The position numbers and the translations under genes were made by a program. DNA of 10,714 nucleotides. Source: an uncultured Tabrizicola sp. (GTDB lineage: Bacteria > Pseudomonadota > Alphaproteobacteria > Rhodobacterales > Rhodobacteraceae). Shown here in pieces: positions 2,454 to 10,628 of this stretch (its first letter is position 1; each line of letters opens with the position of its first letter). The notes beneath the pieces were generated by a model. The model did no database searches. It saw nothing but the letters and a program-made list of their open reading frames with translations, and was not told the origin of the DNA. Location of the stretch: NCBI GenBank assembly GCA_937858255.1, contig CALLZQ010000818.1, positions 1 through 10,714 of the forward strand, read 5' to 3'.

Positions 2454-2657
2454 TCAAGGATGCCAACGTTCGCCGACTGCCGCCTGCTAGTCTTCACGGC
2501 GGGCATCCCATTCGTACCCTTCTGCAATGGATATAAGGCTATCCGACAACCGGGGGCGGGAATTGCCATATCTAGCGGCCAAGTCCCGATAACGCTTCGC
2601 AAGTCGGCGCTCTTGCTCTCCGCCATCGTAGGGGCTGCGTGTGGTTACACTTCGTGC
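2454..2657 (-). pseudogene. 3' remnant of a small alpha-helical protein gene
   Basis: On the minus strand the frame ending at TAG (2489-2487) reads RSPYDGGEQERRLAKRYRDL, then AARYGNSRPRLSDSLISIAE, then GYEWDARRED and stop. The spaced pattern (RYRxLA, PRLxxxL, IAxxYExDARRED) resembles the C-terminal half of small hypothetical proteins that I associate with mobile regions of alphaproteobacteria; this recollection is not a search result. No in-frame ATG or GTG was found upstream before the frame runs into the integrase scrap on the other strand, so it has probably lost its 5' end. Reading past the TAG gives QAAVGERWHP and then tandem TGA TAG, which looks like the natural end, so the TAG may be a nonsense mutation. 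Function unknown. Confidence 0.4.
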
Positions 2658-2987
2658 ATTTCGGTCTCCATAGAGCGCATTCCGGCATCGCGCGAATGGA
2701 TAGAGGCGTTTTGTTCGCAGGCCGATCCCTACAACGCCGCGATGGCGCGTTTCATGTTCGAGACGGCGGCGCGTATTGATCAGGCAATTTCAATTGAACC
2801 GGACGATCTGAGGCCCGAAACCTTTGAGGTTCGCATCAAGGCCCAGAAAGGCCACGCCGAGAGCTGGATTGCAGTTTCACCCGAAATGATGGCTGAGCTT
2901 GAGGCGTTGCAGCCGCAAGCGACCCAAAAACCTGAAAACCGGGCAACTCCTTTCGCCCCGCATTTTCGGCCATGGTACCTGTATTCA
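2658..2987 (+). pseudogene. Fragment of a phage-type integrase (tyrosine recombinase) with a frameshift
   Basis: Site-specific tyrosine recombinases cut and rejoin DNA to move phages and islands. In the frame starting at 2658 the product reads IERIPASREWIEAFCSQADP, then ARFMFETAARIDQAISIEPD, DLRPETFEVRIKAQKGHAES and WIAVSPEMMAELEAL. This is the start of the catalytic domain: the first catalytic arginine falls in TAARID and the beta-strand lysine in KAQKGH. At the A5 run near 2927-2931 the similarity moves to the +1 frame, which continues NLKTGQLLSPRIFGHG, the stretch that precedes the HxxR box in such enzymes. Dropping one A restores the frame. The N-terminal core-binding domain and everything after RIFGHG (HxxR, final tyrosine) are missing, so it cannot be active. 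It runs straight into the TPR/hydrolase frame. Confidence 0.7.
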
Positions 2988-3831
2988 CGCACAGGATTTT
3001 GCCGCCGCGCTCGGCTATGCAGAAGACGCGCTCTGTCACCTGCCGGGGAGCGTTCCGCTTGCGATCAAGCGGGCAGCGATCTTGCGGCAACTGGGTCGGC
3101 TGACAGAAAGCCAAGATACCCTGCGCACATTGATGGACACCCACCCGAAGGATTTGGCAATCCTGCATGAGTTGTCGATCACGCTGAGGTTCTGTGACGC
3201 ATTTGCAGAAAGCCTCGCGATCAGTGCGCGGATGGCAGAGCTTGATCCGTCGCATCGCCCTGCCCTTCTCTGGGGGCGGTTTGACAACCCGCGCCTTGTG
3301 ATCGTCGTCGGGCGTGCGAACAGCGGTCTCGCGTCCGCTGCGCTGACACGATTGACCAGCCGTTTTCACCAGCGCGGCTATTCCGTCTGCTTCTTCCCGT
3401 ATGATCCATCCCACCCAAACGACGCATTGGCGCGTTCGCTGGCGGCATTTCTGGATCTGCGCTACGGTCAACCCACGCTGCTGCTTGCCCATTCCAAGGG
3501 GGCAATCATCTCGACGATGGCCGCCGGGCATGAGGCCGTTTCGGCCATCATCGGTCTTGGATATCCCTTTCGCCAACCCCGACAACCCGACGAACCTGAG
3601 CGCACGTCGCATCTTTGCGCCGTCACAAAGCCGTTGCTGGTCATTCAGGGCACAGATGATTGCTACGGGAACGCAGAGGCGGCGCGGCGTTATCCGCTCT
3701 CGGCATCGACACGGATCGTTTCGGTTGAGTCAGACCACAGCTACAACCGGATCACAGAGAGCGATTACGCAAGATGTGCGGCAGAGATTGAAGAGATCTT
3801 GGCTGACGACGTGAGCCCGGTGGCCGCCTGA
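2899..3831 (+). CDS. TPR-alpha/beta hydrolase protein, N-terminus replaced by integrase scrap
   Basis: The 310-codon frame has three parts. Residues 1-27 are integrase sequence in its shifted frame. Residues about 30-118 are helical TPR-like repeats (DFAAALGYAEDALCHLPG, LGRLTESQDTLRTLMDTHPKD, and a third ending MAELDP). Residues 131-303 are an alpha/beta hydrolase domain: strand PRLVIVVGR, nucleophile elbow LLLAHSKGA with Ser199, LLVIQGTDD with Asp253 or Asp254, and SDHSYN with His280. The whole triad is present, and the fold resembles KANL3/Tex30 or dienelactone-hydrolase-like proteins; the substrate is unknown. No ATG or GTG starts the TPR part; the only upstream start is a TTG at 2899 inside the integrase remnant, and the first ATG (2899-frame residue 79) would cut a TPR. 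The native 5' end therefore appears lost. GC is lower than in the sulfonate genes. Expression is doubtful. Confidence 0.55.
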   Translation: MRRCSRKRPKNLKTGQLLSPRIFGHGTCIHAQDFAAALGYAEDALCHLPGSVPLAIKRAAILRQLGRLTESQDTLRTLMDTHPKDLAILHELSITLRFCDAFAESLAISARMAELDPSHRPALLWGRFDNPRLVIVVGRANSGLASAALTRLTSRFHQRGYSVCFFPYDPSHPNDALARSLAAFLDLRYGQPTLLLAHSKGAIISTMAAGHEAVSAIIGLGYPFRQPRQPDEPERTSHLCAVTKPLLVIQGTDDCYGNAEAARRYPLSASTRIVSVESDHSYNRITESDYARCAAEIEEILADDVSPVAA

Positions 3832-6592: not shown

Positions 6593-7879
6593 ATGTCCGC
6601 GCCCATGACGATCAATGCACCTGCCTATCTCAAGCGCGCCGCGCCACAGCCGCCGGGCGCTGATCATGCGCTGACCGAAACCGTGGCCCGGCTGCTGGCC
6701 GAGGTCGAAACCGGGGGCGAAGAGGTTGCCCGCCGGATGGCGCGGGAACTGGATCGCTGGGAAGGGCCGGTCGAGATCGGCCCCGAGGCAATGGCCGAGG
6801 CCGCCGCCCGGGTGCCGCAACAACTAAAGGACGATATCGCCTGGGCACAGGAAAACATTGCCCGTTTCGCACAGGCCCAGCGCGACAGCATCCGCGAAAC
6901 CGAGGTCGAGCTGCGCCCCGGCTTGGTGGCAGGGCAGCGGTTGATTCCGGTGGCGGCGGCGGGCTGTTATGTGCCGGGCGGGCGCTATAGCCATATCGCC
7001 AGCGCGATGATGACGGTGACGACCGCCAAGGTGGCGGGGGTCGCCCATGTCGCCGCCGTGACCCCGCCGAGGGCCGATGCGCCGGCGGGGGCGCCCGATG
7101 CGATCCTTTACACCCTTGGCCCTTGCGGTGCGGACCGGGTGCTGGCGCTGGGGGGAATTCAGGGCGTGGCGGCAATGGCCTTTGGCCTGTTCGGTCTGCC
7201 GCCTGCCGATATCCTTGTGGGTCCGGGCAACCAATATGTCGCCGAAGCAAAGCGGCTGCTCTATGGCCGGGTCGGCATCGACATGGTGGCCGGGCCGACC
7301 GATTCGCTGGTGCTGGCCGATGGCACTGCCGACCCACTGGTCGTCGCCTGGGATCTGATCGGGCAGGCCGAGCATGGGGCGAATTCGCCGGTCTGGCTGG
7401 TGACCGACAGCCCCGCTCTGGCCGCCGAGGTGGCCCGGCTGGCGCCGCTCTGCGCCGCCGAACTGCCCGAACCAAACCGCAGCGCGGCCCTCGCCGCCTG
7501 GCAGGGGCTGGGCGAGATCATCCTTTGCACCGGGCGTGAGGAGATGGCCCACGAGGCCGACCGCATCGCGCCCGAGCATCTGCATGTGCAGGCCGCTGAT
7601 CTGGAGTGGTGGAAGGCGCGGCTGAGGGCCTATGGCTCGCTGTTTCTGGGGGCGGAGTCGACGGTGGCCTTTGGCGACAAGGCGGCGGGGACCAATCATG
7701 TGCTGCCGACCAGCGGGGCTGCGCGCTATACCGGCGGGCTGTCGGTCCACAAGTTTCTCAAGACCGTGACCTGGCAACGGGTGGCGCCCGAGGGTCTGGC
7801 CCAGCTTGCCGCCGTTACCGCCAGCATCAGCCGGTTCGAGGGGATGGAGGGCCGCACGGACCGCCGATATCCGGCTTGA
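6593..7879 (+). CDS. hpsN: HpsN-like sulfonate alcohol dehydrogenase (histidinol dehydrogenase superfamily), 3' frameshifted
   Basis: A 428-residue member of the HisD superfamily, which oxidises a primary alcohol to a carboxylate in two NAD-dependent steps. HpsN uses 2,3-dihydroxypropane-1-sulfonate to give sulfolactate. Seen: ITINAPAYLKRAA-like start, VPGGRYSHIAS, ALGGIQGVAAMAFG, VGPGNQYVAEAK, Zn-site GQAEHG (Gln258, His261), catalytic IAPEHL (Glu328, His329), and FGDKAAGTNHVLPT with Asp362. GDK in place of HisD's GDY, the YLKRA start, and adjacent cuyA favour HpsN or a relative over histidine biosynthesis. The ATG at 6593 is chosen for GGAGG 4 nt upstream; the frame is open back to 6503. 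The protein ends EGMEGRTDRRYPA, lacking the fourth zinc ligand, a His in EG(L/M)xxH. The +1 frame downstream reads ARTADIRLEKFVPRG to a TGA at 7899, which matches the expected tail, so a 2-nt loss near 7853 is likely. Confidence 0.82.
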   Translation: MSAPMTINAPAYLKRAAPQPPGADHALTETVARLLAEVETGGEEVARRMARELDRWEGPVEIGPEAMAEAAARVPQQLKDDIAWAQENIARFAQAQRDSIRETEVELRPGLVAGQRLIPVAAAGCYVPGGRYSHIASAMMTVTTAKVAGVAHVAAVTPPRADAPAGAPDAILYTLGPCGADRVLALGGIQGVAAMAFGLFGLPPADILVGPGNQYVAEAKRLLYGRVGIDMVAGPTDSLVLADGTADPLVVAWDLIGQAEHGANSPVWLVTDSPALAAEVARLAPLCAAELPEPNRSAALAAWQGLGEIILCTGREEMAHEADRIAPEHLHVQAADLEWWKARLRAYGSLFLGAESTVAFGDKAAGTNHVLPTSGAARYTGGLSVHKFLKTVTWQRVAPEGLAQLAAVTASISRFEGMEGRTDRRYPA

Positions 7880-7921
7880 GAAATTCGTGCCCCGGGGGTG
7901 AGATAGCGGTCTGTCGCCCGC

Positions 7922-7950
7922 TTGGGGGACACCTCTTCCCTCGGGATACT
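7922..7950 (+). promoter_or_regulatory. Weak candidate promoter of cuyA
   Basis: TTGGGG (7922-7927) and GATACT (7945-7950) are separated by 17 nt and would start a transcript near 7957, about 37 nt before the cuyA ATG. The match to sigma70 boxes is modest (3/6 and 4/6). Together with the 114-nt gap after hpsN it suggests cuyA may be expressed on its own as well as by read-through. Confidence 0.25.
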
Positions 7951-7993
7951 TTGAACAGATGAAGGGGCCACGCGCCCGAAGTCAGGAGCAGAC

Positions 7994-8995
7994 ATGCAGC
8001 TTTCCCGTTTTCCCCGTATCCGGCTGGGCCATCTGCCGACACCGCTTGAACCCCTGCCGCGCCTGTCGGCGCTGCTGGGAGGGCCAGAGATCTGGATCAA
8101 GCGGGACGATTGCACCGGCCTTTCGACCGGGGGGAACAAGACGCGCAAACTGGAATTCCTGATGGCCGAGGCGCTGGAGCAGGGTGCCGACATGGTCCTG
8201 ACCCAAGGCGCGACGCAATCGAACCATGCGCGGCAGACGGCGGCGGCGGCGGCAAAGCTGGGCTTGGATTGCCACATCATTCTCGAAGACCGCACCGGCT
8301 ATAACGAGCCGAATTACCGTGAAAACGGCAATGTCCTTCTGGATGTGCTGCATGGCGCCAGCATCGAATATCGCGGGCCGGGCCTTGATATGAATGCCGA
8401 ACTGATGGCGGTGGCCGAGGGGTTCCGGGCCAAGGGGCGGCGGCCCTATGCCATTCCGGGGGGTGGGTCGAACCCGACCGGGGCGCTGGGTTATGTCAAT
8501 TGCGCGCTGGAACTGATCGGACAGATGGTCGAGCGGGGGCTGGCCTTTGACCATATGGTGACGGCGACCGGCTCGGCAGGCACCCATGCCGGGCTGATCG
8601 TCGGGCTAAAGGCGCTGAACGCCCAATTGCCCCTGCTGGGCATCGGGGTGCGGGCGCCCAAGGACAAGCAGGAAGAAAACGTCTTCCGTCTGGCGCAGGC
8701 GACCGAGGCAAAGCTGGGTGTGAGCGGCGCGGTGCGGCGTGAGGATGTGGTGGCGAATTGCGACTACATCGGGCAGGGCTACGGAATTCCGGCAGACAGC
8801 ACGCTTGAGGCGATCTCGCTCTTTGCCCGGCAAGAGGCGATCCTGTTGGACCCGGTCTATTCCGGCAAGGGGGCGGCAGGGCTGATCGACCTGATCCGCA
8901 AGGGCCATTTCACCAAGGGGCAGCGGGTCTTGTTCCTGCATACCGGCGGGGCGATCGGGCTGACCGGTTATACCCATGTCCTGCCGAAACCCTGA
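7994..8995 (+). CDS. cuyA: L-cysteate sulfo-lyase CuyA-like (PLP, D-cysteine desulfhydrase/ACC deaminase family)
   Basis: A 333-residue cytoplasmic PLP enzyme. CuyA cleaves cysteate to pyruvate, ammonium and sulfite. Seen: start MQLSRFPR and LPTPLEPL, the substrate/PLP segment [20 protein letters not shown] with the PLP lysine Lys49, [15 protein letters not shown] (70-84), [15 protein letters not shown] (154-168), the phosphate-binding loop [11 protein letters not shown] (191-201), [15 protein letters not shown], and [12 protein letters not shown] with [10 protein letters not shown] near the end. The closeness to CuyA rather than DcyD is judged by memory of the CuyA opening and of [18 protein letters not shown]; DcyD or ACC deaminase activity is the main alternative. 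AGGAG is 5 nt before the ATG. The racemase start follows the stop after 9 nt, so the two genes are co-transcribed. The hpsN-like gene upstream supports a sulfonate role. Confidence 0.85.
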
Positions 8996-9004
8996 GGGCC
9001 TTTG

Positions 9005-9673
9005 ATGCGGCGGGTGGGTATTCTCGGCGGCATGGGGCCAGAGGCGACGATCCTCTTGATGCAAAAGGTGCTGGCCGCCGTGCCGGCGCGGGATGACGCC
9101 GACCATGTGCCGCTGATCGTCCATCAAAACCCGGGCGTTCCCAGCCGGGTCGCCCGGCTGATCGAGGGGCGCGGCGAGGATCCGGCGCCGGTGCTGGCGG
9201 CCATGGCACGGGATCTGGCAGCGGCGGGGGCCGAAGCTCTGGCCATGCCCTGCAACACGGCCCATGCCTATGCGGGGGAGATCGCGGCGGCCACGCCCCT
9301 GCCCTTTCTCGACATGCGTACGGCTACAGTGCGTGAGCTGGGGAGCGGGCGGCGGATCGGGATGCTCGCCTCACCCGCGGTGCGGCTGACCGGGGCCTTT
9401 GACCGCGCCTTTGCCGAGGCGGGTTTGACTATGATCTGGCCCGGGGATGAGGCGCCGGTGCTGGCGCTGATCCGGCAGGTTAAGGCCGGGATCAACGCGG
9501 ATGAAGGACGCGCGCGGCTGGCCGCGCTGGCCGCACCCCTGGCAGCAGAATGCGACCATCTGCTGGTGGCCTGCACCGAACTGTCACTGTTGACCGAGGG
9601 GCTGCCTGACGGGACATGGACCGACAGCCTTGATTGCCTTGTCGGCGAAATCGTCGCCTTTGCGCGGGGCTAG
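9005..9673 (+). CDS. Aspartate/glutamate racemase family protein, possible cysteate racemase
   Basis: A 222-residue cofactor-independent racemase. The two catalytic cysteines of the family are both present: MPCNTAH with Cys83 and VACTELSLL with Cys190 (numbered from the ATG at 9005). The start VGILGGMGPEAT is the typical nucleotide-like first strand and turn. The ATG at 9005 is taken instead of a TTG 3 nt before it; GAGGG precedes it. It lies 9 nt after cuyA, so it is almost certainly in the same transcript, and that context suggests it interconverts D- and L-cysteate, or a related sulfonated amino acid. That substrate is inference: aspartate or glutamate racemisation, or hydantoin-racemase-like activity, cannot be excluded. 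Its TAG shares CTAG with the convergent lysR stop. Confidence 0.8.
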   Translation: MRRVGILGGMGPEATILLMQKVLAAVPARDDADHVPLIVHQNPGVPSRVARLIEGRGEDPAPVLAAMARDLAAAGAEALAMPCNTAHAYAGEIAAATPLPFLDMRTATVRELGSGRRIGMLASPAVRLTGAFDRAFAEAGLTMIWPGDEAPVLALIRQVKAGINADEGRARLAALAAPLAAECDHLLVACTELSLLTEGLPDGTWTDSLDCLVGEIVAFARG

Positions 9674-10628
9674 TCCTCGGCCATGACCTCTATCGCGCCG
9701 ACCAGCGCCGGGGCAATCGCCTGAAACCTTGGCACCAGCCGTGCCCGGGCGATGGTGCGGCAATCGCGCGCCATGGTCTCGGGCAATTCGCCCAACTCCC
9801 CCTCCCGCGCGATCAGCGAAACGTGCCGGGTCTCACCGGCAAAGGGCAGCGGCAGCACATCAAGTTGCGGCAGGAACCGTTCCGCATCCATCAGGTTCAG
9901 CGGCGTGGTCAGAGTCCAGCCGCGCATCTGCACCACCATGGCAAGGACTGAGCGCGTCGCCTCCAGCGCAAAGCGCCGTTCGGGGGCCAGGCGGACGCGG
10001 CGCAGGTGACGCGCCACCTTTTGCCCCAGTGGCAAGGTTTCGGAATATTGCACGAAAGGCAGCCGGTCCAAGGCCGGGCGCACCTCTTCACCGATCACCC
10101 CGCGCGCCGCCACCAACACGAAGGATTCCTTGAGAATCGGGTGGATCTGATAGCCCGGCCCCTCGGGCAGCAGATATCGGCCTCCCGCGCCTCGACCCGC
10201 TGGACCACATGGTCTGACCGGCCCGAGACCGCATGGACGAAGCAGCGCGGCATCCGCAATTGCACCGCCGACACCAGCACCGGGGTCAGCGAGGCGTCGA
10301 GATCGTCGATGATCGCCAGATTCAGTTGCGGCAAGGCCGAGAGGCTGAGTTCGGCCAGATCGGTCTGCGCCTCGGACACCGCAGATAGGATCCGGTGCGC
10401 ATGGCGGCTGAGCGCCTGCCCGGCGGGGGTCAACGTCACCGGCTTGGCCTTGCGGTCGAAAAGCCGCGCGCCGACGGCGGTCTCCAGCGCCGTGATATGC
10501 TGTGACACGCCCGAGGCTGAGCCGCCAATCCGCTGGGCGGCGCCGATGACGGAACCTGTCTCTTCCAGCGCGACAAAGACGCGCAGGCCACGCAGGGTCA
10601 GTTCGGGGGTCTTGGCCTCGTCGCTCAT
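9670..10628 (-). pseudogene. LysR-family transcriptional regulator broken by a 1-nt frameshift
   Basis: LysR regulators bind DNA through an N-terminal winged HTH and sense a small molecule through a periplasmic-binding-protein-like domain. Residues 13-72 hold the HTH (LRGLRVFVALEETGSVIGAA, then SGVSQHITALETAVGARLFDR and LTPAGQALSRHA). Effector-domain sequence follows (LNLAIIDDLDASLTPVLV) until ADI at 10176, after which the frame reads unrelated residues to a stop at 10095. The other frame picks up at once with LLPEGPGYQIHPILKESF, VLVAARGVIG and continues to TAG at 9672-9670. Adding one base between 10173 and 10174 (ATC CTG CTG) rejoins them into about 319 residues, normal LysR length. The start overlaps the upstream pip stop as ATGA, so it is in an operon with pip, and pip-linked or sulfonate-linked control are both possible. 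Whether the break is real or a read error is open. Confidence 0.85.

Follow-up and report, generated by a model that had tools for sequence, protein, structure and literature searches.

The 10,714-nt stretch of DNA analysed here (the window) carries an hpsN-like gene on the forward strand (ATG at 6593, stop at 7877–7879) whose frame, as written, ends early in EGMEGRTDRRYPA. The question is whether this end belongs to a working enzyme, to a gene recently broken in the organism, or to an error in the sequence. The initial annotation had left the choice between an inactive enzyme and a wrong base call, and we revisited it using homologues of the gene, its neighbors, and a sample of the rest of the assembly.

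An hpsN gene with a frame break

The identity of the gene rests on its ORF, its Pfam match, and its solved relatives. The ORF spans 6503/6593..7879, and its product gives a nearly full-length match to the Histidinol_dh domain (PF00815; E 2.8e-118; residues 24–420 on profile positions 8–402 of 411). The best solved relatives are 8wwe ("(R)-DHPS dehydrogenase," 534 bits) and 8v35 ("Sulfopropanediol 3-dehydrogenase," 457 bits), while HisD chains reach at most 221 bits; by bit score, histidinol dehydrogenases are thus more distant from the product than sulfopropanediol dehydrogenases are. However, the NCBIfam hisD model TIGR00069 also passes its cut-off (393 versus 243.8), which counts against assigning the product to HpsN over HisD. 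These matches suggest that the gene is hpsN-like, putatively encoding the sulfopropanediol/(R)-DHPS 3-dehydrogenase HpsN of the HisD superfamily, an enzyme that takes part in the breakdown of a common sulfur compound and would oxidize (R)-DHPS with NAD. The sequence for the solved chain 8wwe stops just short of the C-terminal GMEGH segment.

In E. coli K-12 HisD (NC_000913.3), we take Gln259, His262, Asp360, and His419 to be the zinc ligands, and Glu326, His327, and His367 to be among the catalytic residues. The first three ligands are matched in the window (Q, H, D), as are the three catalytic residues. The position of the fourth ligand, His419, is occupied by Arg in the frame as written, directly after residue 420. 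Relatives consistently differ at this point: among the best 80 of 284 loci encoding a relative, found by a search of genome contigs, a His follows the position of window residue 420 in all 80, within the motif HAR (75 loci), HAL (4), or HAK (1). A genus search of 16 genomes returned matches in 13 including the window's own, hence 12 others (in three of the 16, nothing matched at E ≤ 1e-150); these 12 also have the His and are repeats of 12 among the best 80 of 284 loci. Both HisD-family paralogues in the same assembly (42% and 41% identity) keep it as well. The suggestion that the zinc-binding His had been lost is therefore upheld, and close homologues that share this short ending, which would have spoken against it, were sought and were absent from the best 80 of 284 relatives. 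The C-terminal 300 residues could be extracted for 77 of these 80 loci, and all 77 were distinct.

The missing C-terminus lies in the adjoining frame. Whereas the closest relatives' HpsN ends in EGMEGHARTADIRLEKFVR, the window ORF ends in SRFEGMEGRTDRRYPA followed by its stop; the +1 frame at 7854..7901 (forward strand) translates to ARTADIRLEKFVPRG and terminates in a TGA at 7899–7901. The first 12 residues of this displaced tail are identical to those of two close relatives, L021 and L016, far beyond chance. The initial annotation had read an early end of the hpsN frame and a +1 frame running from 7854 to the TGA at 7899, and had seen in the latter the expected HpsN tail; translation confirms the former, and the match to L021 and L016 the latter. 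The frameshift that it proposed is also evident in a DNA alignment (31 loci given, 28 rows aligned, of which 17 are distinct, with 11 loci occurring twice), where an internal gap is found in the window row only and leaves the window 2 nt shorter than its relatives. The break, at which the His codon is lost, falls at 7849..7856 on the forward strand, its exact column being uncertain by a few bases.

A 2-nt loss near the 3' end of hpsN would thus have removed the codon for the fourth zinc ligand, which presumably acts across a dimer, and would replace the last ~14 residues of HpsN with an 8-residue out-of-frame end; the body and its three remaining ligands are untouched. The product as written is expected to bind the catalytic zinc weakly if at all and to have little or no activity. 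Since this product lacks one of the features that define the family, the gene should be annotated as a frameshifted or broken hpsN, rather than as an enzyme variant or as a competent HpsN. Either the gene broke recently or the sequence is in error; in neither case is this a new kind of enzyme.

Age of the break and selection on the gene

The displaced tail has diverged from its closest relatives only synonymously. Over 12 codons, comparison of the window with L021 gives seven synonymous and no nonsynonymous changes, and comparison with L016 gives five and none; nonsynonymous differences from the window number one in L017, two in L018, and one in L019. Ratios of pN/pS, all calculated between the window and relatives and thus lacking a baseline among the relatives themselves, are ~0.22 for the hpsN body against L016 and L021 and 0.22–0.32 against nine relatives, similar to those of part of the neighboring DEAD-box helicase gene (0.21–0.28 against five relatives). 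The corresponding values for the genes downstream are 0.10–0.18 for cuyA, 0.14–0.41 for cuyB, and 0.19–0.34 and 0.33–0.43 for the N-terminal and C-terminal parts of a lysR-type gene. With no nonsynonymous differences between the tail and its nearest relatives and with an apparently constrained body, the break would be either very recent or an artefact.

Branch lengths and private changes bear on the same point. In a tree, the window groups with L016, and its end branch (0.23) is shorter than that of its sister (0.35), arguing against a long relaxed history. Private amino-acid changes in the window versus L021 number 38 to 6 with L020 as outgroup and 24 to 15 with L082, and those in the window versus L016 number 27 to 21 (outgroup L020). 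The 38-to-6 excess could be due to outgroup choice alone, since L020 is perhaps not a true outgroup to the window and L021. On balance, these comparisons suggest that hpsN has not been under relaxed selection for long.

Neighboring genes and a second break

Two intact genes follow hpsN on the forward strand: cuyA (7994..8995), putatively encoding D-cysteate sulfo-lyase (NCBIfam NF052482, 543 bits versus a cut-off of 450), and cuyB (9002..9673), putatively encoding cysteate racemase (NF052483, 258 bits versus 190). Among the best 80 of 284 loci, cuyA lies within 500 nt after hpsN in 20, all of which also have a cuyB match. Beyond them, on the reverse strand at 9670..10628, is the lysR-type regulator gene, which is split into two frames at ~10173. 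Single-ORF relatives, among the matches listed, match it in two different frames that meet at this point, and when the DNA is aligned with that of 11 relatives, the window lacks 16 nt at this site. One half carries HTH_1 and the other LysR_substrate (below cut-off), and the two parts share one frame in 14/14 loci where both were found. This second break, absent from the initial annotation, bears on the choice that it left between an inactive enzyme and a wrong base call.

A codon-usage frame scan of the assembly covered the window and 28 readable contigs (181 kb) of 60 sampled; it excluded the other 32, which read as N, and included 20 kb of one 30.3-kb contig among the 28. A break must be flanked by 200 nt or more on either side for the scan to detect it; those near gene ends, such as that of hpsN, escape it. 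Frameshift-like switches numbered 13 in 191.8 kb of the assembly (three of them in the window) and 23 in 400 kb for G008, a relative; the crude rates are thus similar. Nine of the 10 switches outside the window can apparently be put down to ordinary junctions of different or intact genes. Seven of the 10 have different Pfam families on their two sides; for the L107 switch and the second L125 pair, a full-length homologue of one side was found in 4/4 genomes, in the latter case with stop codons inside the matched stretch in two, and the L120 pair had only weak homologue matches, in 2/4 genomes. The scan, combined with Pfam and homologue checks, thus yielded no confirmed lysR-type frame break in the 181 kb of the 28 other contigs. 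Within this sample, and for breaks away from gene ends, a generally error-ridden assembly can be set aside, given the crude switch rate like that of G008 and the nine ordinary candidates out of 10.

The three switches in the window fall in lysR, at the point where an imuB-like gene meets its upstream ORF, and in the stretch 2460–3831. The region 383–2330 on the reverse strand holds a Y-family polymerase-like gene (PF00817, PF11799), which we take to be imuB-like, together with the upstream ORF (1779–2330), which overlaps that gene by ~59 nt and has no Pfam match. In 2460–3831 (forward strand), an integrase-like fragment (PF00589, below cut-off) passes into an ORF in a different frame that has TPR and alpha/beta-hydrolase matches (PF14559, PF20408); near relatives gave no match to this stretch among the matches listed, and it is perhaps a strain-specific insertion or a decayed stretch.

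Other copies of the gene were also sought. A DNA search of the assembly with 7700–8000 found no second version of hpsN, although many contigs shorter than 3 kb are masked and were perhaps not searchable. A duplicate or intact second copy was rejected because this search, in the contigs that it could reach, gave only the window itself and a 69-nt, 78% match in a paralogue's contig. A plasmid-borne close copy was likewise rejected, the nearest being three Leisingera plasmid records with ~73% identity over 63–66% of the query.

Recent decay or sequence error

On the reading toward which we lean, the gene is an ordinary hpsN from a Pseudotabrizicola-like member of the Rhodobacteraceae, and the 2-nt loss close to the 3' end of the gene is very recent. 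The two breaks in one sulfonate locus (hpsN and lysR) may reflect genuine recent decay in the sampled strain, to which we assign a probability of about 0.55, a figure of judgement rather than computation; the hpsN break would then lie in the organism rather than in the assembly alone. By eye, neither the 16-nt lysR indel nor the 2-nt hpsN indel is a homopolymer slip, and since the sampled contigs hold no confirmed lysR-type break, recent decay accounts for two such indels in one cluster somewhat better than scattered errors do. Against decay, the locus still has intact cuyA and cuyB genes, its decay being incomplete; in addition, the crude switch rate of the assembly is like that of G008, and the scan would have missed hpsN-type breaks in other contigs. 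A more specific version, in which the strain sheds DHPS oxidation and LysR control while keeping cysteate use through cuyB and cuyA, would take two recent, independent lesions flanking two intact genes, and we regard it as doubtful.

Alternatively, the organism's hpsN (and lysR) may be intact, with small indel errors introduced into the assembly or consensus by low coverage or merged strain variants. This is a serious rival, if one that we hold at somewhat less than even odds. An intact gene would be expected to have just such a conserved displaced tail and normally constrained body, the source assembly is a fragmented draft (875 contigs, 82.95% complete, 3.27% contaminated), and two breaks in one contig fit a locally poor consensus; the kind of indel, the other sampled contigs, and the search for a second version, within its reach among masked contigs, speak against it. 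That the short-tailed HpsN is instead a working variant, binding zinc otherwise or dispensing with the C-terminal His, seems very improbable: the deposited 8wwe chain ends before this segment, so that at least one chain is without it (through construct, disorder, or record-keeping), but none of the best 80 of 284 relatives lacks the His, and the new end is simply what the conserved tail encodes in its other frame, showing nothing that suggests adaptation. Least credible of all is programmed ribosomal frameshifting that joins the two hpsN frames. The +1 frame is indeed open and conserved, yet shifting by +1 would bring back the tail and not the His, because the His codon is gone; moreover, the break is absent from all relatives examined, and inspection by eye reveals no obvious slippery sequence. 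Should the break be real, as recent decay would have it, the locus shows one strain in the course of losing a sulfonate-use pathway; should it be an artefact, the lesson is that annotating this genome would wrongly call HpsN truncated. Either way, the finding is an ordinary one, and knowledge of the enzyme is unchanged.

Among known systems, the HpsN enzymes of PDB 8wwe and 8v35 are the closest to the window product, which is alike over its body (534 and 457 bits, respectively). The 8v35 tail, EAHARTADDR, is the counterpart of the window's displaced tail; unlike 8v35, the window frame as written has neither the His nor the remaining tail. L-Histidinol dehydrogenase, HisD (E. coli K-12; PDB 1k75), belongs to the same superfamily (PF00815), and three of its four zinc-ligand positions are kept in the window. 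Unlike the HpsN relatives, it scores far lower against the window (206 bits), and its His419 position is Arg there. Recent frameshift pseudogenes are well known from draft bacterial genomes, and the window resembles them in having a small indel near the 3' end of a gene and a displaced frame that is still conserved; the sole difference is that the lesion in the window sits at a catalytic ligand.
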